From positions 12,726,024 through 12,790,023 of the forward strand of contig JAKZAN010000001.1 of assembly GCA_023053545.1 (NCBI GenBank): DNA of 64,000 bases, read 5' to 3'. A program made the position numbers and the translations under genes. Of the stretch, positions 12,924 through 39,000 are shown piece by piece. Within the stretch, counting starts at the first letter, position 1; each line of letters begins with the position of its first letter. Under the pieces are notes generated by a model. The model was not told the DNA's origin. It ran no database searches and worked only from the letters and a program-made list of their open reading frames with translations. The DNA is from Lepidurus packardi (taxonomy: Eukaryota; Arthropoda; Branchiopoda; Notostraca; Triopsidae).

Positions 12924-14817
12924 TCAGCCAATGTTGGTGGATGAAGAAGGCACACTTTTTGGGGGGAGGAAACCTTCGGGAGACGTCATATTGCGTAATC
13001 TTCGGGCTCGCATCCGTGAAGGCGGTTTAATTGAAGGTTGACCACTTGTTACGCCCGAGCGAGGTACACTTGTCGCATGAAAAGTTGTGTCTTGAAGCTT
13101 TTGCACAGCCACCTGGGGAGGAGGAGTTTCAGGCGCGGAAACGACCGTAGTTGGGCTCCAAAAGTTGATTTGGATCTGTGGGACTGCAAACTGAGTGGGA
13201 AACATCGATTCTGATGAGGTTTGAGGCTTGTTGTTCGGTTCGCAACGTTCAGCTCGTGGCAGCAGAGGCATGGCTGAGCACCAGGCGGCATTGGTGAGCT
13301 GGGACGCTACGTTAATGACGGAGGAAGAATCGGAAGGTGTTGGTGACCGTCCGCTCAGGCTTTGCAAGGCTTTCTTGATGGTGGATTTCACCCACGATTC
13401 CCTAGACTTGAAGGCGGAGGTCAGGGAACCCGCTGAGACGGATCGTTTCAGCTTGGGTTCCGAAGTCCAGCGACTTGAGTCGGGTGACTGGATGGGAACG
13501 GCCCGGCGAATGAAACTTTCAATGAGATCGGCGCACTTGGTCCGGTTGCACAACTTGGCCCATTCCAGGGCGCACAAGCCACGACCATGATCTCTCGCGC
13601 TAATTGAAGCGCCTACCAAAGAAGAGGAAAGTGGTTCGTTAATTAGGGGATGGTCTATTTTGAGATAGGGGAAACCCAGTACCAGCTAATAGGAGTATCC
13701 GAGCGCAACGTAAACGCCCTTGCAAAGCCGCTTTCATGAGGGGTGTTAAGCCCGTTGAATTTCGGCACTCTATATCAATACCCGGAGCCAGAGTAAGCAG
13801 ACTGACGATGTCCGCCTGACCTAGACGTTGCACAAATAAATGTCAATTTTTCGTAGCTTATTTTGGTTTCAAATTTAGGGAGTTTAGATAGGAATGAACA
13901 GGCGATATACCTGCTTGAGCGGCTACGTGCAGAGCGCTATTGCCTTCCTTGTCGACTGGGTTGACGTCGATTCCTTGTAGCCGCAGTAATTCACGTGCAA
14001 TCGACACGTTTCCAGTGGCACATGCATACCACAAGCCCGTCTAACGCAGTTTTTTTTATTTTATGAATTAATAGATGTGAATATGAAGTACATATAGTCA
14101 TGTATGGCTAAGAAGCTTTGTTTACTTGGTCTGACGCGTCTCTCATATTGATGGTACCGGGGCCAATACTGCCCGGGGCGGCGTTCTTCAAGTAGGCTTT
14201 GAGTGCATCCAGGTCTGCACTTTTGCAAAAGTCCAATACAAGAGAAGAGGGCATTGGCTCGCGTGAAAGTTTCGTTGCCAAGGTTTCTTTTTGGGAAGAA
14301 GTGATGGGAACGCTAAGAATGATTTTCGAAGAATCTGGGGATGCAACTGGCCGCGGTCGAAGTGGAGCAGGAAAGACTAACGTTCCGTGCCTTACGACAC
14401 CAAATATTTCCTATTAAGACATTGTTGACAAGGCTTATTTGCGGTGTTTACTTGTAATAGGACGTTTCGTGGTGACGATGGCTTGTATTTACGGTCGGCA
14501 TGACTGGCACACGTCGTTTTACCCCTCCGGATTCGTAGGAAAAGCTTTTCGATAAGGTGTACGCTTGTTTGGGCGCTGATGTAGATTGGCTTATTGCTAA
14601 TGGCTGTTGAAATTTGATGCTAATTTTGGCCTCCGTGACCACCATAGCTCCATCCTGAAATCACATAACATAGAGGACGTCAGTTTAACTTGTTGCTATG
14701 TAAGTTTGCGTACGTTACCTCCGCGCTGGACGTACTGGGAAGTTGATCAACAGAGATTTTACGATTGTATTGCTTCCTGCGAGGCAAAGGTGGTCGCCCA
14801 TTTCGATCCGGCTCCAT
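12924..14817 (-). CDS. Ankyrin-repeat protein, ANKRD33-like
   Basis: Minus-strand exons are 14817-14719, 14654-14493, 14410-14126, 14040-13911, 13820-13683 and 13612-12924, giving 500 residues with all phases matching. After a Ser/Pro-rich N terminus of about 170 residues come four to five ankyrin repeats: TGLWYACATGNVSIARELL, GNSALHVAAQAGQADIVSLL, GLTPLMKAALQGRLRCARIL and GLCALEWAKLCNRTKCADLI. The last repeat, with LEWA.LC.R..CA..I, resembles the closing repeat of ANKRD33/PANKY proteins. The C-terminal 200 residues are Ser/Thr/Pro-rich and likely disordered. Vertebrate ANKRD33 members are linked to photoreceptor gene regulation; whether that applies here is unknown. The second intron donor (CCGACC/gtaaat) is the one that keeps the frame. 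A start at 14868 is also possible. Confidence 0.8.
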
Positions 14818-15641: not shown

Positions 15642-18600
15642 ATGGCGTTATTGGGATCGGTGATAATTCTACAGCTCGGTTCCGTCATGCCTTGGACGAT
15701 TCGACAACAACAAACGCCGGAAACGGGAGGAGAGTCGGAAATCTCAGACCAAGGGGTCGTTTGGAAATGGGGCATTTTACCCGCCTTTACTCTCAGGAAA
15801 CTGCCCACTTCAACTCCTTCACCAGTACCAGCACTGAGCAGCACTAATCCTTCAAGTGGGAATTTCACTAGCCCAACCCCTTGCCTTATAACTTCACCTC
15901 CCACAACTCGATTGCCGCCTATTCAAAGTCATGGTCAGTGCTTTACATGTCCGCCAAGAATTCCGTATCGTGCCGTAAGTTTATGCGGGTTACCAAATAG
16001 AATGGATGAACCTAAACATTTGGCTAATGAAACATGCAACAAGTTTTTGGGTTGCTATAGCGACAGCAAGTTGCTCTTCAAGGAAAGTGACAGTTATAAC
16101 TGTATAGTCTGGCAAAAAAACAAAAAATTAAAATACCTTTGCTTGAGCGACTATTGAGAGTGACCCGTCTTTTGTTGTACCGCATATCTTTTCATGCTGA
16201 TAGATCATAGCCTTGGTTTTGTCTAAGAAATAGTAAAACAGAAAACACTCAAAAGTGCATTACTTCATCTCGCTCCCGTTAGCTATAGCAACCGTTGATC
16301 ATGCGTATATCGGACTATATAGAAACGTCATAGAAACTTCATCATCCTGGGTCTTCATTAGCTTTCCGTTGGTCGTACTAGTCAAGAGCGTTTTGCGGTG
16401 AAAGAAAGTTTTGTCAAAACGTGTTGGGCCTATTTTTAAAATCTTTAAAAAAATCTTTTTTAAATCAACTTTCAGTTGCAAGCTGCAGTAGGGAAATTTA
16501 CTTGTTTTCGCTGGCATTATTGTTGAAAACGGGTGTCATTTGTGCTAAACCACGAGTGGATCCACCTCTTTTTGTAAGGGCCCTTTTACTTTTTCTTTTT
16601 TTTTCTCGTCGAATATGCGTGTCTGCTTCCTGCGGGGTCCAAGTATATTAATGAGCTTATTGTGTGCGGTCTTGCATGGTATGTGTGTTTAGGAGGTGGA
16701 TTCCGAGGACCTTGGCTGTCCATTGTTTATCAACAACCACAGCAAGATGCCGTCCTACTTCCATGCCAAGGACAAAACGAACACTGTAAACAATAATGGT
16801 AAAACTAATAATATTTGGGTTAGGTATTACGAAATCAGCGCTTTTACCTATCCCCTATACAGGCCTAGTCATGGGAAAATGGATCGCATCGAATAGCAAA
16901 CCCGAGAAACAAAGAAATTCCCTCGTCGGTACAAACCCCAGTAAACCCATCCGCTTACCCGCTGTTGCTCCCGTAACCCGTTCGATACTACGCCCACCCA
17001 CATACATTCCCGCTCACCGTCCGTTGGCTGTGGATTTTGTTAATTTGCCCCGCAATCAAGTCGATGCCAACGTTGAAGTAGTCGCATCATCCGAGCGAAC
17101 CAATGTAAACAACGCTACCCACGAGGGTAGTTTTGCTTCTGCTTCCTCACCATCATCTCCGGCTTCAGGTAAAGCACGGCCATGTACGGCAAGCGAACAT
17201 TTCGTAATATGAAAGGGGCCAACTAACGAGAACTCCATGTAAGGTCAATGCTACGCGTTTTTGCCTAACGCCAATTATGGGCTTTGGCAACTCAATTCTT
17301 TATCCGCCTTGATCAGCAGTTTCTCTAGTAATGCTGAGCTGAGCCAAGACCCATGCATGAAAAGAAAGGCAGTACTGTTAAAAAAAAAAGGATAAGGATT
17401 ACGAGGGTTTAGTGAGTAATGTGTTGTGTTTTCAATTCCCGTTATGGTAAAACGCAGGTACAAATTTGGACATGGACGCGACTCCTACGCAATTAAGCTC
17501 GCCAGACCGGCTCTTGACATCACCGTCACCTCAAACAGAAGAGCCTCAAGCTACACAAACCTCAGATTCTGAGCTTGAGCAGGAGTTCACCAGCACTGCC
17601 AAGACGCCAGAGAGCGGAGCAGATGCAGAAGATGCTGCAAAGGCTTTCGATCCGTTAAACGAGCAACAACAACAAGAAAACCCTAACTCGACAATGTTGC
17701 GTCCAGCTGAGCAGCGAATGTTCACGTCCAGGGCCCATCTGGTAGCTAATCTCGTGCAAACTTTTAATGCCAAATCCGCCCCTTCATCACCAGTGAAACA
17801 GTGTGCTTTGGCTTCATCTCCCAAATGTTTAGTTTCTGCCCGGACCAGTTTTGTCCCCATTGTAGCGGCCCAAGTCGAACAAGATGATGAAGAAGATGAA
17901 GAAGACGAAGAAGAAGGGGTTACCGAAATCGAAGCAATAGTACCACACAGACAAGAAGAAGAAGGCCTTGACGATATCCAAGAGCAGCTAATCAACAAAG
18001 TGTGCGATGACGATGCCGTTATGGTGGATGTGGAAGAAGCCTTGGAAGAATTGGAATTTATAGAAGATGAACGAGAAGAAGAAGTAGAAGAAGAAGAAGA
18101 GCAAGTGGAAGAAGTAGAAGATGACGAAGAAGAAGAAGAGCAAGTAGAAGAAGTAGATGATTCGGAAGCTGAATCGAGTGGCTTTTCTTGCGATTCCATT
18201 GAAGAGGTGCAAGAGCTGCAAGATAAACCTACGGGCCCAACAGAAGCAGTGGCGAGTCTTGCATCCCAAGACACCACAGACGGCGAGTACGTGATTACAC
18301 TTTTTATTCCTTCAGCTTGGTTTTTATTGATAATAGCACAATATGACGTCAACTGAAAAGGAAAATAGGCGTGATCACCTTGGCACACATGTATGAATGT
18401 ATTATAGCCAGCGTGTGAGCATAATGCGCAGAGGTGACGGCGTCGATTCGTAAATGTCCATTCGCTCACCGGTAATAACAGCGAGTGAGGCATGCCATGT
18501 ACTTGTAGTCACAAATGTTTACTCGACATCAGCGATACCTATGGCTCACCTTTACTCAGAATGCTCAAATTCGTACATGCGCCTTAAGTACATAAATTTA

Positions 18601-21624: not shown

Positions 21625-24600
21625 ATGGAACTCCCGGACCCCTCTTTTCATTTAGCAAGTCTTCTAAGATGGGTAGGTTTATTTTTCACAAATAACGCAA
21701 CAGTGATTTCTAAATCAATTTATAAATAAATAAGTATTAAGATAAGGGATTTCTTAACAGCTTGGAACGTTCAACATATCCGTCCCACATAGTTCCGTCG
21801 AAAATTTGAGTAATGGAGTGGCGCTAGCTCAAGTTCTACAACAAATGTAAGTTTTATAATTCATTAAAAGCATCCAGTGCATGTTATATGATCATCATTT
21901 TTCCGTTCTTAATCTTGTGCTTGGCTTGATCTTTGATCTTTTTGTTTTCAATGCATCGTGTTGCCCAAAAGGCTTTGATTATTACTTTTCATTTTCATTC
22001 TCAGCGGTTCGTCTCACCCAGATCCTAAATTGATTGACAATCCTCTACACTTTTTGTTCTTAAAAACACATTCTCGTTTATCCTATCTCAGTCACCGGCA
22101 TGAAAACAACCTTTCCTTTTTCCCACCCTTGAAGTTGAAGCTTTCAATGCTTTGGCGCCAGTTTAGCCTTTTGCCCTTTTTCGCAATTACTCAAATATAC
22201 GACTCTCATATTGTCAGAATTGCAATGAGAAAGTAATGTCCGTCTTCCTAATTTACAGAGATTCGTCGTGGTTTGGTGACAGTTGGTTGGTTAAAATCAA
22301 GGCTGAAGTAGGATCCAACTGGCGCCTGAAGGTGATTTGCGTATATCTTAATCATTCCTTATTATTATTCTCTCGATGCATCCGTGTGTCAGTAGGGGTT
22401 TTCCCATCCCCTATTCTGGGGCAATCCCTACCAGCAAAGCAGTATAATTACGATTTCCGGTCGATTTTTTAGCCTTCAAGTGGGCCAATCCTTTCTCTGC
22501 CTCTACCTGCGTCAAACACGATTGGTGATGCCATTGGGTCGTGATTGTGCCCAAGTCCACCCAACCTACGCACCCGCCAGCACCGCAAGCTTCTTGCGTG
22601 CGTTTCCTTCTTTCTTTTTTCTTTTCGTCGTTCGTGAACGACAACGGCAGGCAAAAAGGAACACCGCGAAAGAAACGAGGACGAGTACTGCATGCATTAA
22701 CTTATTAAATTTATATGACAAGTGGGACGATGCCGATGGGGTACCACAGAAATCGCAACCACGATTTTTTGTTTTTCCGCGATTCTCATACCTATTGATG
22801 GAACATGTTAATCCCAAGAGGTCATTTTCAGGACAGAAAACTGCCCTGTTATTATGGGGTGGGATTTGGATTAGTCGACTTCCGTTTCCAGAAAGGACAG
22901 GAAACGAGTTTTAGAGTTAGGCGGTACAGTACAGGAATACTATAGTTAGTCGTGGGAAACGGCCAGGGAACAGGTGGAATGGTTCCGAACTTTTATTAAA
23001 GCATGAGAATCCCTTCTCGTCCGTGTTTTGGTATCATGCCACACTTATACTACGCTCCTCTGCGTCCAAAAGTTTTTAACAACCTTTATATATCCATCTG
23101 TATCTGTCTATTGTAGATAAGCAATCTGAAAAAAGTCCAAGAACGTGTGGTGGATTACTACCAAGAATCGCTGGGTCATTCCCTTGCTGCCTTCACCTTA
23201 CCTGACGTCAACCGCATAGGTAAATACTATACAGTACACCGTTTTCCTCTTAACATTTTGAAAGCGTGGAGAGAAAACAATTACATCATCACTGTAAATA
23301 GGTGAACATGGCGATCGTACTGAAACTGCCCGTCTTTTGCAGCTTGTGTTGGGATGCGCCATTTACTGCGACCGTAAAGAAGGTTAGTTGTGATCGATAG
23401 TTCATTCAGTGGGTTCAACTAATTTTTTCTTTATTTTTGGGGGTCATGTAGATTACATCCAAACCATTATGCGGTTGGAAGAAGATGTCCAGCAAGGCAT
23501 CATGCGAGCTATTCAAGAATTGGAAGCAAGTGGCATGGGTGGAGACTCTTTGGCTGGCTTTGCAGGCGCAGGGAGTGTTGCGTCCAAACAAGCTTTGTTG
23601 GATGCATTGGAAGCCGCTAACGAAACCAAAGAGCAGCTCAGTCAGCGATGTCAAAAGCTGGATCATCAAGTGAGCGCTTCTTTTTAAACCTTTTAACAAA
23701 TTTTGTCTTGCAGGAAAATATTTTTATTTACATTTTTTGTTTGTATTTTTTATTTATATTTTTGTTTATGTTTTTGTTTTTATAAATTTTTTTTTTTTTT
23801 TTTTTTTTTAAATCTATAGTTGGGGTTAATGCAAGGCGAGCGGGCTACATTGCAAAGTGAAATTGAGCGGTTGCAAGAACTGCTAGATCGTGACGGACAA
23901 TCAGATCTGTCCGGTCATGCGCAGCCTTCATCGGATGTAGCGTTTCGCTATCGAGATCTTCGTCAGCAAGTCGAGTCTCTCCGAGAGGAAGTTTTCAAGC
24001 TGGAAAGTTGTACGTTAACCATTTTTTTTTTTATAAAAAAAATTTAAAACTAACAGTCTTGCGTGGTTTTGATCTTGCAGCACGAGAGGAATATAAAGTT
24101 CGAGCCGATTTTTTGGAAAGAGAACTAGAATCTTTACGATCCCGACAAGAAGAATTGGTTTCTGCAGCGGAAAGCGCTCGTTCGCTCAAAGATGAAGTAG
24201 ACATTCTACGTGAAGTGGCTGGCCGTGCTGCCAAAGCTGAAGCCACTGCCGAAGGCTTACGCAAACGAGCTGAAGAGTATAACGAGTTGCGACGCCAAAT
24301 GAGGAAGTTGGAAGAAAAAAACGAAGAGCTCCTTAACCAGAATCTTGTCTTGGAAGAAGTAACTTGACCTCGGACCTTTTATTTAAAAAGAGAAAAAGAG
24401 TGCTCTCGGCACACTTTTTACGCTCATTTTGGTTCTCTTTAGGAAGTCAAGAAAGCCGTGCCATGGAAATCGCAATTAGATTTGCAGAAGAAGCAAATGG
24501 CCGAGCTGCAAGAACGGCTAAGTCAAGAAACGCAAAGGACAGACAAGTTTGAGTTCCAAGGCAAGAAGCTGCAAGAAAAGTTGGACGCCTTGCAACAAGA

Positions 24601-27600
24601 AAAAGAGGTATTTTTTGTTTATTATCTACTTAAAATGAAAAAAGAGGTCCGAAAGTAACTTTCCGTGCCGTAGCGTTTGGCCCGCGAAAGGGATACCTTA
24701 AAAGAAGCCAACGAAGAACTGCGTTTTGCGCAACTAGCTTCAGGTGGTACACCCGCACATGCCTTGAATCTTAGCGATGACGACGGTGTTGCTGGCCTAG
24801 ATACCGTGGACATGATTCCGCCCCAAGTCAGGTACAAAAAAGCTCCCAAGGCCCTTTTTTGGTATGCTCTTGTCTGGATTACATCTTTCAATGCTTTCTG
24901 TTCTCGGTCTAGCGCAATTCATAAAACTTTGTCACCTTTTCCTTGAAATTAATTCGAGAAAAAAATTTAACCTAAATTTGCCTGAATTTTAATTATTTTT
25001 AATTATTACTTTTGTATTATATTTTATTTTGGATTTTGGACATTTAACTATTATGATTTTTATTTCCTCTCACAAATTTTTACATTAATGCGGTCTCGTG
25101 TTAAAACCAGATCTCAACGAAAGATCAAAAGATTTTACCCAAGCACCTTTCGAAGAATGCGTGAAGTTCCCATAAGTGCTACTTTTTGCATTTCTCCGGC
25201 TAAAATAAATAATAATTATTATTATTATTTATTTTGGATATTTTTAACCAGTAGGCTGATTTTTGGAAGCAATTGTTAAAGTTTATGTTTTTCGCATAGA
25301 GAAAAGCTGATCCGCCTTCAACGGGAGAATGTCCGTTTGTTGGAAGCGCGTTCAAAGGCCGTGCATGAGAACGGCTGTAGTGAAGAAGAGAAAGCGGTTC
25401 TCCAAGCCATGGTAGATGATCTAAAACAGCGTGAAGGTGACTTGGAAGCCCAGAACAGGTGTGTGAACCATTGCAGCTTCCTTTGCAACTCCCATCATGC
25501 CCACTCTCCCCCTATTATTAAGCACATTCACGAAATTCATATGACCTCGCCAACTCCAATCATAAACGGCTGCACTCCAACTCCTGAAGCTTTAGTAGAA
25601 TCGCTTTTGCAACCACAAGTACCCAGTGCCAAACCTTCACCTGCTCCCAAAACGTTACAAGAGCGTAACTATGATAATCTGACGTCCATAGCTCATGAAA
25701 ATGCTAGCCCCAATTTCATTCTGTCGCACGAAGACTATGGTCGTATGGCGGACGAATCGTTTGCCGAGTCTTACAGCGCGCGTTCTTCTCTACGCAGTTC
25801 AGGCTACGGACCTTCCAGTATCGGTACCGCTTCGCCATTCTGGGGTACCCTCGAATCCAATCCCAAAGACCGCGATGTGTGGACCTCGAGCTCCCCAAAT
25901 GGCGACTTTAATCTTTTGCGCAGGAAGACTACGGCTGGGCCTTTCTTGAAACGTTTTAACGAATCTCGTCGGTCTCTTAGTTTCCAGGACTCGAACCGAG
26001 CTAAATATGAAGCGGTTGGTAACAAACCAGGTCTCACCAAGCCCGTTTTTGCAGGCCAGATAGTATCAAAGCGTAAAAACGACAAAGAAGAAAAGGAAAA
26101 CTTGGGAGAAAGAAGGGCGTCGACTGGTTTAGCCTCTCCTATTTTAGTGCAAGGTGTGGTTACGAAGCGATTATCCGAAATTAATTCCTTGAGAAGCAGC
26201 ACAACTAACGGGGCCGATGCCAAGCACATTTCCTGGCATTTGCCGGACAAAACGTACGGTTATGACAAGGCCTTAGGTTTCGCGCTCACCCAATCCCCCA
26301 TCCTGGGACGCTCCGCTCCAGTAAGCCCAGTCTCACTCACCCCTCCCGCTTCTCCCTCCAAATCGGCAGATTTAGAGGCCGAGACAGCTCAGCTAGTGCA
26401 GAAACAGAAACCTCCCCATCCTCTCGAACCAATAGTAGTTATGCAGTCCGCCACCAGCGGTAGTAATAATAGTTTGCGCTCTACGAAATTCGAGTATTTT
26501 TCTCAGCCTTCAGCCCAGAAAGCGAAGGTTCCTTCAAATGAGCAAGAAAAACAGGACTTGTTAGCCAAAACCCCCTCTCCCAGTCCAGATTCAGAAGATA
26601 CAGTCGACACCGTCCAGGTCGAACTCTTATCTTTGTCGTCCGTTTCGGGAATCAGCGACTCCGGGGTGTACCGTCCAGGAATATTTCGGCCTCATTCACC
26701 TTCAGTAACAAAGCAAGTGCTCATCCCGGAATCCTATGCCAAACATTTGAAAAAGAAAAAGTCCAAAAAGGGTTTCAAGTCCATTGGCAGAGCTTTTTTT
26801 GCCTTCTGTGGGCCCTGAGTATCGGATATTCGGATATTTATGTCGGATATTTAATGCTTATATCGGATATTCGGATGTTTATGCCAAATATTCTGATATT
26901 TATCGGATATTATGGTATTTATGTCGGATATTTTGATATTTATTTCGGATATTCGGATATTTATATCGAATATAGGATTTTTTTAAAACAAAAGATTTTT
27001 TTTTATATAAAAGATACCATGACGTGCCAAAATTGGTAGCTAGAATTGTTTCGGACTAGTCAGGTGGGGTTAAAATGCAATTTTTTTAAAGAAAAATTTA
27101 TTTTTCTGGAAGAAATATTTGCAGCTTTATTGGGAATGATGGACAGTGTATGTTCGCCAAGTAAATATTGGCTGGAGTTTTTCGTGTTTTTTGTGTTTAA
27201 TGGTTCTAGTTTTCTTGTATACTGTCATGGGCGTATTTCAAGTTGTGCTTGATGCTTGGGGCAGGGCAAATTTTATTGTGTGCTAACTTTGCCAAAGCAA
27301 AAAGTTTATTGCAAAAACATTCCATTTCATATAAACGTCCAACGTGTATTTCATTACATACTATTTTTTAAAAAATTCAGTAAAAAATGGTCGTGTTTTT
27401 CTTTTGTTGATGAAATGGGAAACATTTCGAAAAAAAAGTCTTTCCCCGCCCATCTGCCCCGCTACCACGCCTATAGAAAGCATGTCTAGCACCTCTTGAC
27501 AACGCACCCACACTTTTTAGGACGTTGGTTGATATGTAAATATCATTGTAGTTCGGAAGTACGTCAGTTAATTTTCGCGTATCTGTGTGTGTGTTTTGTC

Positions 27601-28356
27601 ATTAGGCGCTCGAATCAACGCTTGTTGGCATTGGAGAGCGAGCTGGAAGAGCTGAAGGCTTTGGGAGATGGTGGGCGTGTTCAAAGTACGACGGCTAGTA
27701 CGGAAGAGAAAGAAAAAATTGCGCAGTTAGAACGTGAATTGTCGACCAAGAGTTTAGCCGTGGAAGAGTTAGAAGTCAAGTTGACGGAGCAGGAGCAAAG
27801 AGTTTCGGTCTTGCAAGAAGCAGTGGGAAGAAAAGAAGTCGAGATGGCTGCCATGGAAGCGCGGTACAAGAAATACATCGACAAAGCCAAGAAGGTGCTG
27901 AAAACGCTCGAGTCCAAAGGGGGCGGCGCCACAGATGCCGCTCCCGAAGTGGTGGCTCTGAGGGCGGAGCTTCAAGAGAAAGACCGCATAATTGAAAGCA
28001 TGGAACGTGAAGCAGAACGCAATCGTTTAGTTCGCGAAGAAGCGGATCATCTTATGACAACAGCGTTTTATAACCTAGTAAATACATAAAAAAAACTCAC
28101 ATTTTTTTAATTTGTCCGAGCTAATTTCACCTCGAATTAGGGCATGCAAATGCAACGCCAAGCAATGGATCAAAGATTGGGAGGAACTCCAGCCAGTCCT
28201 TCTTTATTAACTAGGCAACGGCAAGCGGTTGCAAGAAAAGCTTCCAATTTAAACCAAGGGTAATAATATAGTAATTTATATGTTGAAGTATTTCTAAAGA
28301 ATCCTAATGAGTTTTTTTTTCTTAATTTTTATTGCAGTGATAGTTACGACTATTGA
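21625..28356 (+). CDS. Hook microtubule adaptor, canonical isoform
   Basis: Exons: 21625-21672, 21761-21846, 22259-22331, 23117-23219, 23302-23382, 23452-23669, 23820-24009, 24081-24358, 24443-24607, 24674-24831, 25300-25458, 27606-28077, 28141-28259, 28338-28356; 722 residues, the usual Hook length. The start MELPDPSFHLASLLRW leads into the Hook domain (SNGVALAQVLQQI, SWLVKIKAEVGSNWRLK, LVLGCAIYC, MRLEEDVQQGIMRAIQEL), which binds dynein light intermediate chain. A long coiled coil follows (about residues 175-660), including LKDEVDILRE, TLKEANEELR and MEARYKKYIDKAKKVLKTLE, which match vertebrate Hooks. The C-terminal cargo (FTS/FHIP) region ends DSYDY. Hook proteins couple dynein-dynactin to endosomal cargo. 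All 13 junctions keep phase. A second 3' end is described separately. Confidence 0.95.
25300..26818 (+). CDS. Hook alternative terminal exon, 453 novel residues
   Basis: If the donor at 25459 is not used, the Hook frame stays open for 1360 more bases to TGA at 26816-26818. The isoform would keep the first 519 residues (Hook domain and most of the coiled coil) and replace the cargo-binding tail with a Ser/Pro/Thr-rich, mostly disordered segment. The end is strongly basic and then hydrophobic with one Cys (KKKKSKKGFKS followed by an FFAFCGP end), which suggests membrane or acidic-surface binding and perhaps lipidation; that is inference. The translation has protein-like composition throughout, with no low-complexity breakdown. 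I know no Hook with such a tail. Intron length here (2147 bp) is by far the largest in the gene. It could also be a separate downstream coding exon with an unseen acceptor. Confidence 0.65.
26820..26980. repeat. AT-rich minisatellite in the last large Hook intron
   Basis: About nine degenerate copies of a unit near ATCGGATATT-CGGATATTTAT occur in tandem, starting two bases after the alternative Hook stop codon. Units vary (CCAAATATTCTG, TCGGATATTATG). The repeat may lie in the 3' untranslated region of the alternative transcript. Confidence 0.85.
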
Positions 28357-28652
28357 GATTCCAACGATCGAAAGGAGCCTTAACGTTGGGTTTACCTAGC
28401 ACGCGTTTATTTCTAATCAGAAAACACTTGACTTTGTTGCTCGTCAGATTCATAAGCGTAAAGGGTGGGAGTGGCGGGGACAGTTGCTGATGAGTCTTTC
28501 CTTTGTTTTTATTGAGACAGTAGAGGGATCGATTTTTTAATTTTATTAATTAGATACTAACAGAAAGGTGACAAGTCCAAGAATTCATGTCAAAAACCAG
28601 TAGTGATTTTATTCGCATTGGAAGAAAAGTGAGTATAGAAAAAACAAGTTCT

Positions 28653-30766
28653 TCACCGCTTTTTCTTTCCTTTGGGCGCCAGTTCCAAACCTTTGATGTA
28701 TTTCTTAGGAATTCCGTACTCCTCTGTAAAAGAATAACACATACAATCATAAAATAAAAGCATTAAAGCTAACATGAGTGTTAAACTCACCCATGAGCAA
28801 TTTTGAAACAAAAGCTACTTGATTGCCTTGCACCAACACCAGAGTTCCCTTTTTGGCGGGTGACGTAGTTAACGTGGTCGAAGCGGCCACGCCTACTTGA
28901 CATCTACGCGCGAACTCTTCCAACGGAATACTGAATGCTTCCAGCCCACTGATCAAAGTCACCTGGAAACAGTTTTCTTACAAATGTAATCTCAACTTGA
29001 AATAATTGAACTAAAACACCCTCGCCCATTTTTTTAAAATAACCTTTTTGTTGCCCGCACGCGTAGCCACAGATAATTCTACAGGCTCCAAGGCTCCTTT
29101 TAGCACTTTGGGTTTTTCTCCCGGAAAGGTGAGCGAATACGCAGACCCCATTTTTGCTAAACAACGAACATGTAGATTTTCCCAAAGTAAAGCTGGAGTA
29201 TCAGGTGCTTCCCCCTTGTTTAGTAAGATGTTCGTAAGGATTGGATCCAGTTTTATCACGCTTAAAAAAGAAAAATAAATAGACGCTTATTTCCATCGAA
29301 GGTAACGTAATTTCCTACTTTTTGTCATCTTCGTGTTGCAACTTATTGTTTTTGACGTACTCCGATAAGAATTTTCGGACTTCCGGGGCAGTCAACGTGT
29401 CGCCTTTGCTACAAAAACAGACAGTAAAGTAAAGATAAATTAAGATAATTAAGTTCGAATTGCATTTTTTTTTTTTTTTTTAGTACCTACCTGTATCTGT
29501 TCGCGGAGAAAAGAGGAGCTACAGTAGCGTTTACGGTGTAAAGTTCTTGAATTGTCGGCGTTTGGTAGGATTGATTAGAATTCGTTTCGACTGCTTTCAC
29601 TTCCTCTAGATCAGGAGAGTCAGCTGTAGGACGGTCATCCTGGAAGTCTCGTAGTCTGTTATGGCTAAAATTGATGCCAGTAATGCTCTCCACGCCAGGG
29701 CTAAGTTCCTTGACGTCAAGTAACCCTTTAGCTTTCATTCCGGCCAGGAATTTAGAGAGTTTCTTGAAGGAAGTTTTCTTTACTTCGAGCGTTTCTCCAG
29801 ATGGACATGCGGCCAGTATATGACTCTTGAAGAAAGTACTGCTTAATATGGGAAACTCAGCTTTTTTAGCTGTGGTTTTCAGGCTCTTAAAGAAACAGTA
29901 GTATAATAGATCGTCCATTCGTTCTTGCGGAGTCTTTGAAGTATCTGGCTCAAGTTGGATTTCATCAAGTTTCGACTCTAACGTTTCGCCTTCTTGATTA
30001 GTCTGTGTATTCAGCTCACTTTCTGTAAGCTCCGGTTTTGGTTCCATGGCGTCAGTCGCATTTTGCGGTGGCAAGTCCATGTTTGAAGGTTCTTTTGAGG
30101 ATGAAGCAGACCCAGGAGGACCTAATTCAGGTGGAATAACTTTCCCCATTAACTGACAAAGGTGATCGCCGATGCAATGGAGGATTTCGACGCCTTTGCC
30201 CTTGCCACCACACATGTACATATCTTCTCCTGATAGGGCGGTTTTTCCCACAGCCAAAGGAGCAGTGTTTTCGTTGGTAATAATAGAAACAGCTTCTCCT
30301 TTGGAGAGTTTCCCATACGCTCTCATTCCCAAAGAGCCGTCAATAATAATGCCAGGAAGCATCAAGTCCGCTCCGTTGGCCAGTTTGCTGACGACAGGCA
30401 ACCATGTTGTAAAACTGGGAAGAATATGAGGTGCTTTCCATAGAGTAAAGAGAGAAGGATAGCTGCGATCTTGGACATGGAACATGACGGGTGTTTTGCC
30501 CACTAGATGAACGCTGGCATAATCTTTCTTATGGGTTTCGATCTTCATCAGAGTCATGTCCTCTTTAGGCGGAAGTATGGAGGTAACTATTTCTTCTGTT
30601 AGGCTTGGGTAGAGCTTGAGTAGGTCACTCTTCAATTTTTTCCTGTAAAACAGAATCAGGAATTCAAAATCATTTATCAATTTTGGCATAATAACGACTT
30701 GGTTTTTTACTTTTCTGAACTCTTTAATTGTGTGTTGGATTTGACCCGGAAAGGTTTGGCGAACAT
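28653..30766 (-). CDS. EIF2D: Translation initiation factor 2D (ligatin)
   Basis: Minus-strand exons: 30766-30711, 30642-29491, 29408-29319, 29260-29044, 28962-28791 and 28723-28653; 585 residues, the family length. The start MFAKPFRVKSNTQLK matches eIF2D. An N-terminal DUF1947/PUA region follows (LKLYPSLTEEIV, FTLWKAPHILPSFTTW, NGADLMLPGIII), then an acidic linker, a winged-helix segment (FKKLSKFLAGMKAKGLLDVK, LSPGVESI), a SWIB-like part and a C-terminal SUI1 domain (TRAGNKKVTLISGLEAF, QGNQVAFVSKLLMEEYGIP). eIF2D delivers Met-tRNA to the ribosomal P site without GTP and recycles 40S-tRNA-mRNA complexes. The large 1152 bp second exon carries most of the PUA and linker. It is divergent from RNF170. 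Confidence 0.95.
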
Positions 30767-36000: not shown

Positions 36001-39000
36001 AAACGTTCAAGTGCTTAAAAATCACACACACACACACACAACAAACACCTTTCTTTGTCCCCCTAAAACTAAGGAGTCATAAGCGTGCGCCGCAAAACTC
36101 GTAAATACGACTCGCAGTGCGACTCGAAATGCCACGCGGATCAACCCAAACTAATACATTGGAAGAGAGAGAAGAAGAACCTCGGTTGCTGTACGGGTCC
36201 AGACCCGAAGAAGAACTCGAACCTGAAGAGGATGAACTCGGATAAGAAGGGTAGATAGAGGGACGGTCGCGATCATTGCCTCCTCCGCCAATGCTGCCGC
36301 CGAATCCATACGGGCGGTTTAAACGGTGCTTCCACCGCTGCTTCCAGATCCTATTCCGCCGTAACTCGAGCCGCTTCCACCATAGGCACCTCCCCCCGAA
36401 CTTCCACTGTACCCACTTCCTCCAGCAGAACTCCCACCATACCCACTTCCCCCTATACTTCCACCGTACGAACCTCCCGCTATACTTCCACCGTACGAAC
36501 CTCCCCCTAAAGTTCCACTTCCAAAGCCACCGCCACTTGATAGCCCTCCTATGCCTCCTCCTCCGGTGCCACCGGAGGAGGAAAAGGGGATATTACTGGA
36601 CCAGGAAGAGGACGAAGACCAGGCGTTGTTGCCCAAATCGGCTCCTGCGAACCCGGATCCGTCAGCTAAAAGTATTGTTAGGACCAGACATGAGTGGTAC
36701 GCGGACAGGGACGTAGACATTAGTGGGGAAAAGCGTTCATAACACAGCCCTTTTGTTGACCATATCGTTTATAGCTAGTGATGGTTACCTGTCAGACTTT
36801 CGTAGTAATCGTAGTCAGGGTCGTAGACCAGACGTCCGTCTTTCTGTTCGAATCGACTCAGGCGGCAGATTCTGTAGCGTTCACTGTACATGGCTGAGCG
36901 GCAGCGGTAACTTGCCTAAACAGAGGAGTCATTAGGTTAATTGCGTCCTGCCAAGCTATTTTAAAACTTATACTTGGCGTAGACACTCGTCGAGGCATTC
37001 TGCCAGGGTACGGTCTGTGATTTCGGTCTGGAAGTCGGACGACAATCGGGAGTTTCGGTAGCGCTGGAACGCTGTTAGGATATCCCTGCGACGACCATCA
37101 GCGTAGAGCGGGGAAGTGTCACCATCGCCGCGACCATTTGAGGGTGTCTCAGTGTTTTGCCCGCTCGTTTCCATGCACATAAACTCAAAGTATTGGTACT
37201 TGGACCCGGAAACTTGATTCACTGAATTGCTCGACTCGGGCTCGGGGCTTGTAAAGGAGTCCTCCGAGGATAAGAAACAAGACTGGGTGGCGGGGTCGAA
37301 GATAAACGACCGGCAAAGATACCTACGATACATTCCCCCCAATTTGGCGTCAGTCGTAAACTAGTTTACCCTGAAAATGTGTTACGTACCTGTCGGCCGC
37401 CACGCAGCGAGACTGGCATTCTTCTGCAGACGCATTCCGTACCGTTTCAACTTCTAAAAAGTTGCCAACTTGGGTGCGTTCTTCACGAATAAACGACACT
37501 CGGCCATCGCAGCGTCGGTCCTCTGATAGGCACGTGTTTTCGAAATAATCAAAGCCAGGGTCGTCTTCGAAAAACTGTGAATGGGACCGCCTCGTATGTC
37601 GGCTCAAGTAGCAAGTACGTGACGTACTGTCGTACGAAGCTCCGCGGCACACGAAGCTGTACTCGTTTAAGCATCTAGTTCGGAATTTAGCATTAAGTTT
37701 AACTTCTCTTAGACAGTTTAAGTTGAATAAGAAATGCTTCGTACTTGTCTTCACATTCCGTGCGATTGGCTACAAAGTATTCTTTGGCCCCAGTAGGACG
37801 GAATTTCTTGCGAGGAGCGCGCTCAATGACGTATCGACGATTCGGGCACTCGCGGTCAATCCGGGAAGCTAATTATTATCAAAGTTACCCCAAAGCAAAA
37901 AGAATGTTTCGTTTTCGTTTACATGTTAGACAGATTTCGCTGAGATGGAAAGAGCCAGGCATGGCCACAAGCGTGCCTAATCCTTCAGGGCGTGACTGTT
38001 CGCGGGACAGGAAGCAGACGGAATCCTCGTAATCCCCTACACTGCCACTCAATCCATTCCCATTGTTGTTGCTACTACCGAGTCCGCCCAACAATCCTGC
38101 CCGTCTGCCTGGCTGGAAATCCAAGGAACTGCACGTTCGTACTAGATTGTTGGCTGCTGTGCGGTCCCGTAAGCACAAGTCTTGGCATTTCTCCAGAACT
38201 TGCATCGGAGGAGAGGCATCTCTCACCTTAATTTACCACCAATTCATTTTTTTGCTTAAAAAATACTGCAATTTTTTATTATTATTTTTCTAACTTACCA
38301 CGTCATCGTCAAATCCTTGGAGTTGGTAATTAGGGAGCCTTTCGTAGACTATCTTACCCACTCCGAAATTACAAGTCGTTTGAGCTGCAAACAAGAGAGG
38401 AAAGGATTTTTTTTTTAAATTAACATATCCATTTCGAATTAGTCTAAACATTTGGTATAGAAGTCAAGATCATTTCGTTTGAATCCCAAATAAAATAAAG
38501 TAAACTCCACACCGTAATAAATAGCTTGAAGCACTGTGAGTGTAGGCTTCCACAAAATCATTGCAGCATGGTTAACTTGGTGGCTAACAAATTAAACTCG
38601 CTATGTAATCGGTAACACTTATGATGAGTTAATGTCGACTCTTGCTCAAATGCAAGCTGGTTTGTTTCTGTCAGTTGATACCTTACCGTTATGCTTTAGT
38701 GACCTGGATGGAGGGGGAGTCCCATAGAGATGCTGCGGGTAATTAACCCTCTGCCTGTTGCATGTAATCAACCCACTGAAAAATTTATTTACGCCTACAC
38801 CATATATTTTTTTTCTAAAAAGGCGCGATGGAATTGTGTTTTACGATTGGCATAAATTGTGTGGATTTTACTCGGAACGGGGGGAAACAAACAGGAACTT
38901 ACAAAAAAATAGAGGAAAGGGGGGGGGGTACCCACCCATGTCCGTAAAACGTTTACACGGTTGAACTGATTTTGTTTCATAATTTAACCCCGTCAGTGCC

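Follow-up and report, generated by a model that had tools for sequence, protein, structure and literature searches.

A candidate alternative C terminus of Hook encoded by a long open frame in the largest intron of the Lepidurus packardi Hook gene

The Hook gene and the open frame in intron 11

The window, by which we mean the whole 64,000-nucleotide stretch of Lepidurus packardi DNA that was analysed, contains a Hook gene whose exons join to encode a canonical protein of 722 residues (Table 1). Pfam places HOOK_N (PF19047) at residues 11-153 of this protein (E 2.6e-63) and the HOOK coiled coil (PF05622) at residues 195-711 (E 7.3e-132). The presence of the N-terminal Hook domain is also seen in the match to the Hook homolog 3 structure 6b9h (E 3.7e-52); five PDB sequences match the canonical protein, four of them named Hook homolog 3 and one Hook homolog 1, and towards the C terminus residues 555-624 match 9kns and residues 575-711 match 8qat. 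A search of the animal's own genome with PF05622, in which scoring was restricted to the best candidates, gave four matches at E <=0.001, all of which are exons of this same gene (7, 8, 9 and 12). Hook lies tail to tail with a convergent eIF2D gene, the coding ends being about 300 bases apart, and neither AATAAA nor ATTAAA occurs between the two stops (28357-28653). Other open frames in the window comprise a Glu-rich, acidic frame of 301 codons upstream of Hook (17451-18353, + strand) and two frames on the - strand (12927-13685, 253 codons; 36080-36592, 171 codons), and for each of these there is no Pfam match at E 0.0001. Rfam gave no match at gathering score within the window.

Intron 11 (25459-27605) measures 2147 nt and is the largest of the 13 Hook introns, the other twelve ranging from 63 to 785 nt, as the initial annotation of this DNA had proposed. 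That annotation had also described the Hook frame as running on uninterrupted for 1360 bases beyond the normal donor, and we confirm this: a stop-free frame of 512 codons (25280-26818) spans exon 11 and the next 1360 bases, with its stop at 26816-26818. Reading on past 25458 gives a protein of 972 residues, of which 520 are common to, and identical with, canonical Hook and 452 are new; the long in-frame tail thus stands, and the earlier count of 453 residues includes the split Arg codon at the exon border. Directly after the alternative stop lies a degenerate tandem array (26822-26973) with a 21-bp unit, 7.4 copies and the consensus TCGGATATTCTGATATTTATG.

Table 1. Positions in the window of the features of the Hook locus discussed in the text.
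Feature	Position	Strand	Description or basis
Hook gene, coding span	21625..28356	+	14 coding exons, borders chosen by inspection, then joined
Hook exon 11, last shared exon	25300..25458	+	donor CAG/GTGTGT at 25458/25459
Alternative C-terminal coding stretch	25460..26818	+	continues the Hook frame for 452 codons and ends at the stop
Possible separate exon of rival models	25523..26818	+	acceptor-like site, in-frame ATG at 25541
Basic amphipathic tip KKKKSKKGFKSIGRAFFAFCGP, net charge +8	26750..26815	+	hydrophobic moment; short low-confidence helix in AlphaFold2
Canonical exons 12-14, lost in the alternative form	27606..28356	+	PDB matches; HOOK3 roles from parts of PMC11996680 and PMC12152161

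Coding character of the stretch

The open frame is real, and for practical purposes chance is excluded as its origin. The probability that 452 codons stay open is 1.4e-9 if stop triplets are as frequent as in the flanking introns, 3.8e-10 at their rate in a 200-kb sample of the genome and 3.4e-7 at that of the open frame itself; to give a sense of scale, the 200-kb sample holds 10 stop-free frames of at least 450 codons. The longest open frame in 500 order-2 simulations was 212 codons, and the period-3 power of the stretch is 3.67 compared with a maximum of 3.28 among 2000 shuffles. In the Hook frame the tail has a codon score of +0.150 bits per codon, and the corresponding means of 30-codon windows are -0.134 for the non-coding set and +0.129 for the coding windows. 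The latter are the same sequences that served for training, namely 31 long open frames from the 200-kb sample and six non-Hook stretches of the window, among which there may be mobile elements or pieces that are in part non-coding. The five other frames all score lower, the best reaching 0.107 on the reverse strand, and each holds 13-23 stops. When only synonymous choice is scored, the stretch exceeds 2000/2000 back-translations made with non-coding frequencies, with frame +2 scoring higher on this measure than the true frame (32.7 vs 23.1). The view that the frame arose by chance within the intron, for which the only point is that the tail matches no known family, is refuted for practical purposes by the open-frame odds, the periodicity and the synonymous choice, and its probability is negligible. 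The description of the translation as protein-like is therefore borne out, in that the stretch, when read in the Hook frame, has the properties of coding sequence; we take it to be a real coding exon, and one that is very probably in use.

The signal differs along the stretch. The first 27 codons past the donor (25460-25540) score -2.9 bits and are non-coding-like: this value is equalled or exceeded in 0.547 of 836 non-coding windows, of 4318 coding windows a fraction of 0.066 scores this low, with a density ratio of 0.28. The following segment, 25541-25795, scores +14.1 bits, which is reached by none of 2618 non-coding windows and lies near the middle of the coding ones, and 25796-26815 is likewise coding-like at +56.7 bits; some single 30-codon windows from 25541 onward score near zero. 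The first 15 residues past the donor (25460-25504; CVNHCSFLCNSHHAH), which fall within the part that scores as non-coding-like, are rich in Cys and His. Opposite the tail, on the - strand, lies an open frame of 151 codons (25804-26259); it is probably a shadow of the coding frame, because, over the stretch as a whole, lower scores are seen in the reverse frames.

Relatives of the tail were sought in several collections. The tail has no match in NCBIfam or the PDB and no Pfam match above a cut-off, and on its own it recovers no Pfam family at E 0.01. Exon 11 and tail together gave Pfam matches to TRIM_CC (E 0.0003), HOOK (0.0025) and DUF908 (0.084), all below the family cut-offs, the TRIM_CC and HOOK matches lying mostly on the coil of exon 11. 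No second copy was found in the animal's own genome, where the search with the tail, that with its last 37 residues and that with a degenerate codon pattern for the tip (control 0) each returned one match, the locus itself. Pattern searches yielded no confirmed relative among 11 matches in IMG/VR or among 87 in GTDB contigs, collections in which an animal exon is not expected. A pattern for a liprin motif (KG-hydrophobic-KSS-hydrophobic-GR) gave no match on either strand and its reversed control gave one, and a likeness of the tail to liprins was accordingly set aside.

Probable attachment of the stretch to a Hook transcript

We consider it likely that the stretch belongs to a Hook transcript, whether by read-through or as a separate exon, and we favour, with some reserve, an alternative last exon read straight through from exon 11 to give the 972-residue product. 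Membership of Hook is favoured because the frame is unbroken from exon 11; if coding sequence began only at 25541, a connection over 27 codons that happened to be in phase and free of stops would have an estimated probability of about 0.10 (1/3 x 0.956^27). Taking the unbroken frame and the low score of codons 1-27 together, we estimate that read-through is favoured by about 3 to 1 before other signals are considered. In some transcripts, as we reconstruct them, the exon 11 donor would go unused and the transcript would end within intron 11. This donor agrees with the consensus at 8/9 positions and is the best among the 13 of the gene, so that bypassing it would require regulation, of which early polyadenylation is one possible form. 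The simple read-through of the initial annotation is thus upheld as likely, and against it stand the non-coding-like codons 1-27, the skipping of the best donor and the absence of AATAAA and ATTAAA from 26819-27605, where only weaker variants of the poly(A) signal are present. One or other of these hexamers occurs in 0.71 of 2000 random sequences with the composition of that interval. Both are also absent from the canonical 3' end between 28360 and 28752, an interval that extends past the stop of eIF2D, which we placed near 28653 by inspection; because the canonical end lacks a signal too, the missing signal does not separate the models. We do not favour an insertion that returns to exon 12 through an internal donor and so keeps the FHF end, as the stretch has no donor of at least 7/9 besides that at 25458; two sites of 6/9 exist within it, and 0.304 of 1000 simulated sequences likewise have no donor of at least 7/9.

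The low score of 25460-25540 would find an explanation if the stretch were a separate alternative last exon of Hook with an acceptor of its own, the open connection to exon 11 being accidental. An acceptor-like site before 25523 has 13/15 pyrimidines, a content that none of the gene's 13 real acceptors reaches, and the phase 0 that it requires is offered by the ends of exons 6 (23669), 8 (24358) and 9 (24607). However, this site ends in AAG, where a pyrimidine precedes the AG in 13/13 real acceptors; sites of its pyrimidine content occur at 0.73 per kb; and its use would demand an accidental open join in frame over 21 codons, with an estimated probability of about 0.13. Seven phase-2 YAG sites with at least 9/15 pyrimidines inside the stretch, among them 25777 (9) and 25798 (11), would in principle be available as acceptors to exon 10 or 11, but splicing at either of these two would leave the coding-like segment 25541-25795 as intron. 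The product in each case would still be a Hook with a tail encoded by the stretch, but either its coiled coil or its tail would be shorter. We regard a separate exon as quite unlikely, and a small nested gene on the same strand in Hook intron 10-11, with its own promoter and a function unrelated to Hook, as unlikely. The coding exon of such a gene would occupy about 25523-26818 or begin at the ATG at 25541, which is the first in-frame ATG of the stretch and the point from which the coding signal is clear. This ATG has C at -3, a weak start context by the animal consensus, and the continuity of the stretch with exon 11, open throughout in the frame of Hook, also speaks against a nested gene; moreover, a protein of 425 residues without a known domain is in our judgement less natural than a tail. 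A former exon, once coding and still open but now unused, would fit the strong donor upstream; since local rates predict one stop per ~23-31 codons, 452 stop-free codons make this history highly improbable. We return below to the preferred reading, in which the stretch is read through from exon 11.

Predicted function and comparison with known systems

Interpolation from the PDB alignments of canonical residues 11-155, 555-624 and 575-711, between which the chain is unaligned, places the cut at about residues 516-522 of human HOOK3. Excerpts of PMC11996680 describe the FHF complex as autoinhibited, with crosslinks from CC2 to CC3 and CC4 in HOOK3, and HOOK3(1-522) as a truncated, constitutively active form; they assign KIF1C binding mainly to HOOK3 607-632 and the FTS and FHIP1B sites to 663-718. 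Parts of PMC12152161 put the KIF1C site within HOOK3 591-624 and define the dynein-binding region as the Hook domain with the first two coiled coils, and in passages of PMC5533585 HOOK3(1-552) serves as a known activator, with KIF1C and FHIP binding specific to 553-718. By analogy the alternative Lepidurus form would retain residues 1-520, which comprise the Hook domain, CC1, CC2 and the beginning of CC3, and this part should bind the dynein light intermediate chain and activate dynein-dynactin. The claim that the dynein-activating part is retained is upheld, with the cut near the end of the constitutively active construct; the further claim that most of the coiled coil survives holds to the extent that 326/517 residues of the Pfam HOOK match (195-711), or ~63%, are retained, namely 195-520.

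What the alternative form would lose is the rest of CC3 and CC4, matching the HOOK3 regions that contact CC2 when the protein is inhibited and that bind KIF1C, FTS and FHIP. The replacement of the FTS/FHIP-binding tail, as initially proposed, agrees with our alignments, by which the counterpart of the part of HOOK3 bound by FTS and FHIP would be removed: the segment that matches 8qat (575-711), and with it an FHF-competent C terminus, is absent from the alternative form and lies in exons 12-14. At canonical residue 664, in exon 12 and hence also absent, is EEADHLMTTAFYN, which loosely resembles the EEKxxxSAWYN motif published in PMC11996680, as given in the part of that paper used here. Because the lost part holds the CC2 contacts and the KIF1C, FTS and FHIP sites, the alternative form should escape fold-back inhibition and be unable to join FHF; the loss of autoinhibition is suggested by analogy with HOOK3(1-522).

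The tail contains 14.4% Ser and 9.1% Pro and carries 18 Ser-Pro/Thr-Pro sites. It looks disordered: a single-sequence AlphaFold2 model of exon 11 and tail has a mean pLDDT of 46.7, with 385/512 residues <50, values that fit disorder but equally the lack of an alignment, and it shows a short low-confidence helix near the tail end. The last 22 residues have a charge of +8; the most basic 22-residue window of the tail contains 9 basic residues. Among windows of 11 and of 18 residues, the highest hydrophobic moment of the tail lies in this tip, and the observed moment was reached by 140/10000 shuffles of a 13-residue core and by 238/10000 of the last 18 residues. The tip was earlier described as having two Phe pairs and a Cys close to the end; it holds four Phe, with one adjacent pair rather than two, and the Cys is third from the end. 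The tail has no transmembrane-like span, the highest 19-residue Kyte-Doolittle mean being 0.87. KASH peptides end in the form PPPx, and no PPPx stands at the tail terminus; nor do the last four residues, FCGP, form a CaaX prenylation box. Of the linear motifs scanned, SxIP, NPF, DPW/F and the LC8-type TQT are each absent from the tail; it has one RRxS, six PxxP, three YxxPhi and one acidic-dileucine-like match, all of them kinds that often arise by chance and to which we give no weight.

Together these features suggest a model in which the disordered, Ser/Pro-rich tail and its amphipathic tip would attach Hook elsewhere, most likely to an acidic membrane, in a manner that would be adjustable by phosphorylation at the Ser-Pro/Thr-Pro sites. 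Membrane attachment by the tip is predicted from its sequence, and microtubules, RNA or importins are equally plausible as its binding partners. We propose only tentatively, and would not favour outright, the full model, in which transcripts ending in intron 11 supply a natural, membrane-attached and constitutively active dynein adaptor that is independent of FHF. Were this model true, one gene would provide two adaptors, one of them gated and acting within FHF and the other ungated and independent of FHF, and Hook would find cargo without FTS and FHIP. Relief of Hook autoinhibition is an active question, to which excerpts of PMC11996680 offer KIF1C binding to the C-terminal half as one answer; in the alternative form Hook would also be switchable on by transcript choice, near the cut chosen for the active laboratory construct.

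Our searches of open-licence PMC papers showed no description of a Hook with an alternative tail of this form. The main text of a Daphnia magna isoform paper (PMC11061156) contains no occurrence of "hook", and excerpts of PMC7649786 and PMC8730729 hold nothing on alternative Hook ends. The initial statement that no Hook of this form has been described needs a qualifier, as in the portions of PMC13224763 consulted the isoforms a, b and c of ZYG-12, the Hook of C. elegans, differ in their C termini and hence in location, and act at centrosomes or the nuclear envelope. The likeness is that one Hook gene carries different C termini and dynein is sent to different places. ZYG-12b and ZYG-12c, by the same partial account, have a C-terminal transmembrane segment and a KASH end, whereas the Lepidurus tail is long and Ser/Pro-rich; and the ZYG-12 isoforms, according to a figure legend of PMC13224763, all keep the FHF-binding region that the Lepidurus tail would replace. 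If our model is true, the principle seen in ZYG-12 would hold also for a tail that is soluble and disordered and has a charged tip.

The canonical FHF Hook has residues 1-520 in common with the alternative form and, unlike it, has the region matching the HOOK3 fragments bound to FTS, FHIP and KIF1C. The cut itself is nearly identical to that of the laboratory construct HOOK3(1-522), as described in part of PMC11996680, which is engineered and tail-less, whereas the alternative Hook would be natural and carry a new tail of 452 residues. In its design the tail comes nearest to kazrin C, a member of a different family to which the likeness is one of design only: sections of PMC10181827 present kazrin C as a candidate dynein/dynactin adaptor with a C terminus that is predicted to be disordered and that binds PI3P by means of a required poly-Lys stretch, which had earlier been proposed as a nuclear localisation signal. 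Alternative C termini of Hook are thus already known from ZYG-12, and it is the kind of tail and the position of the cut that are new.
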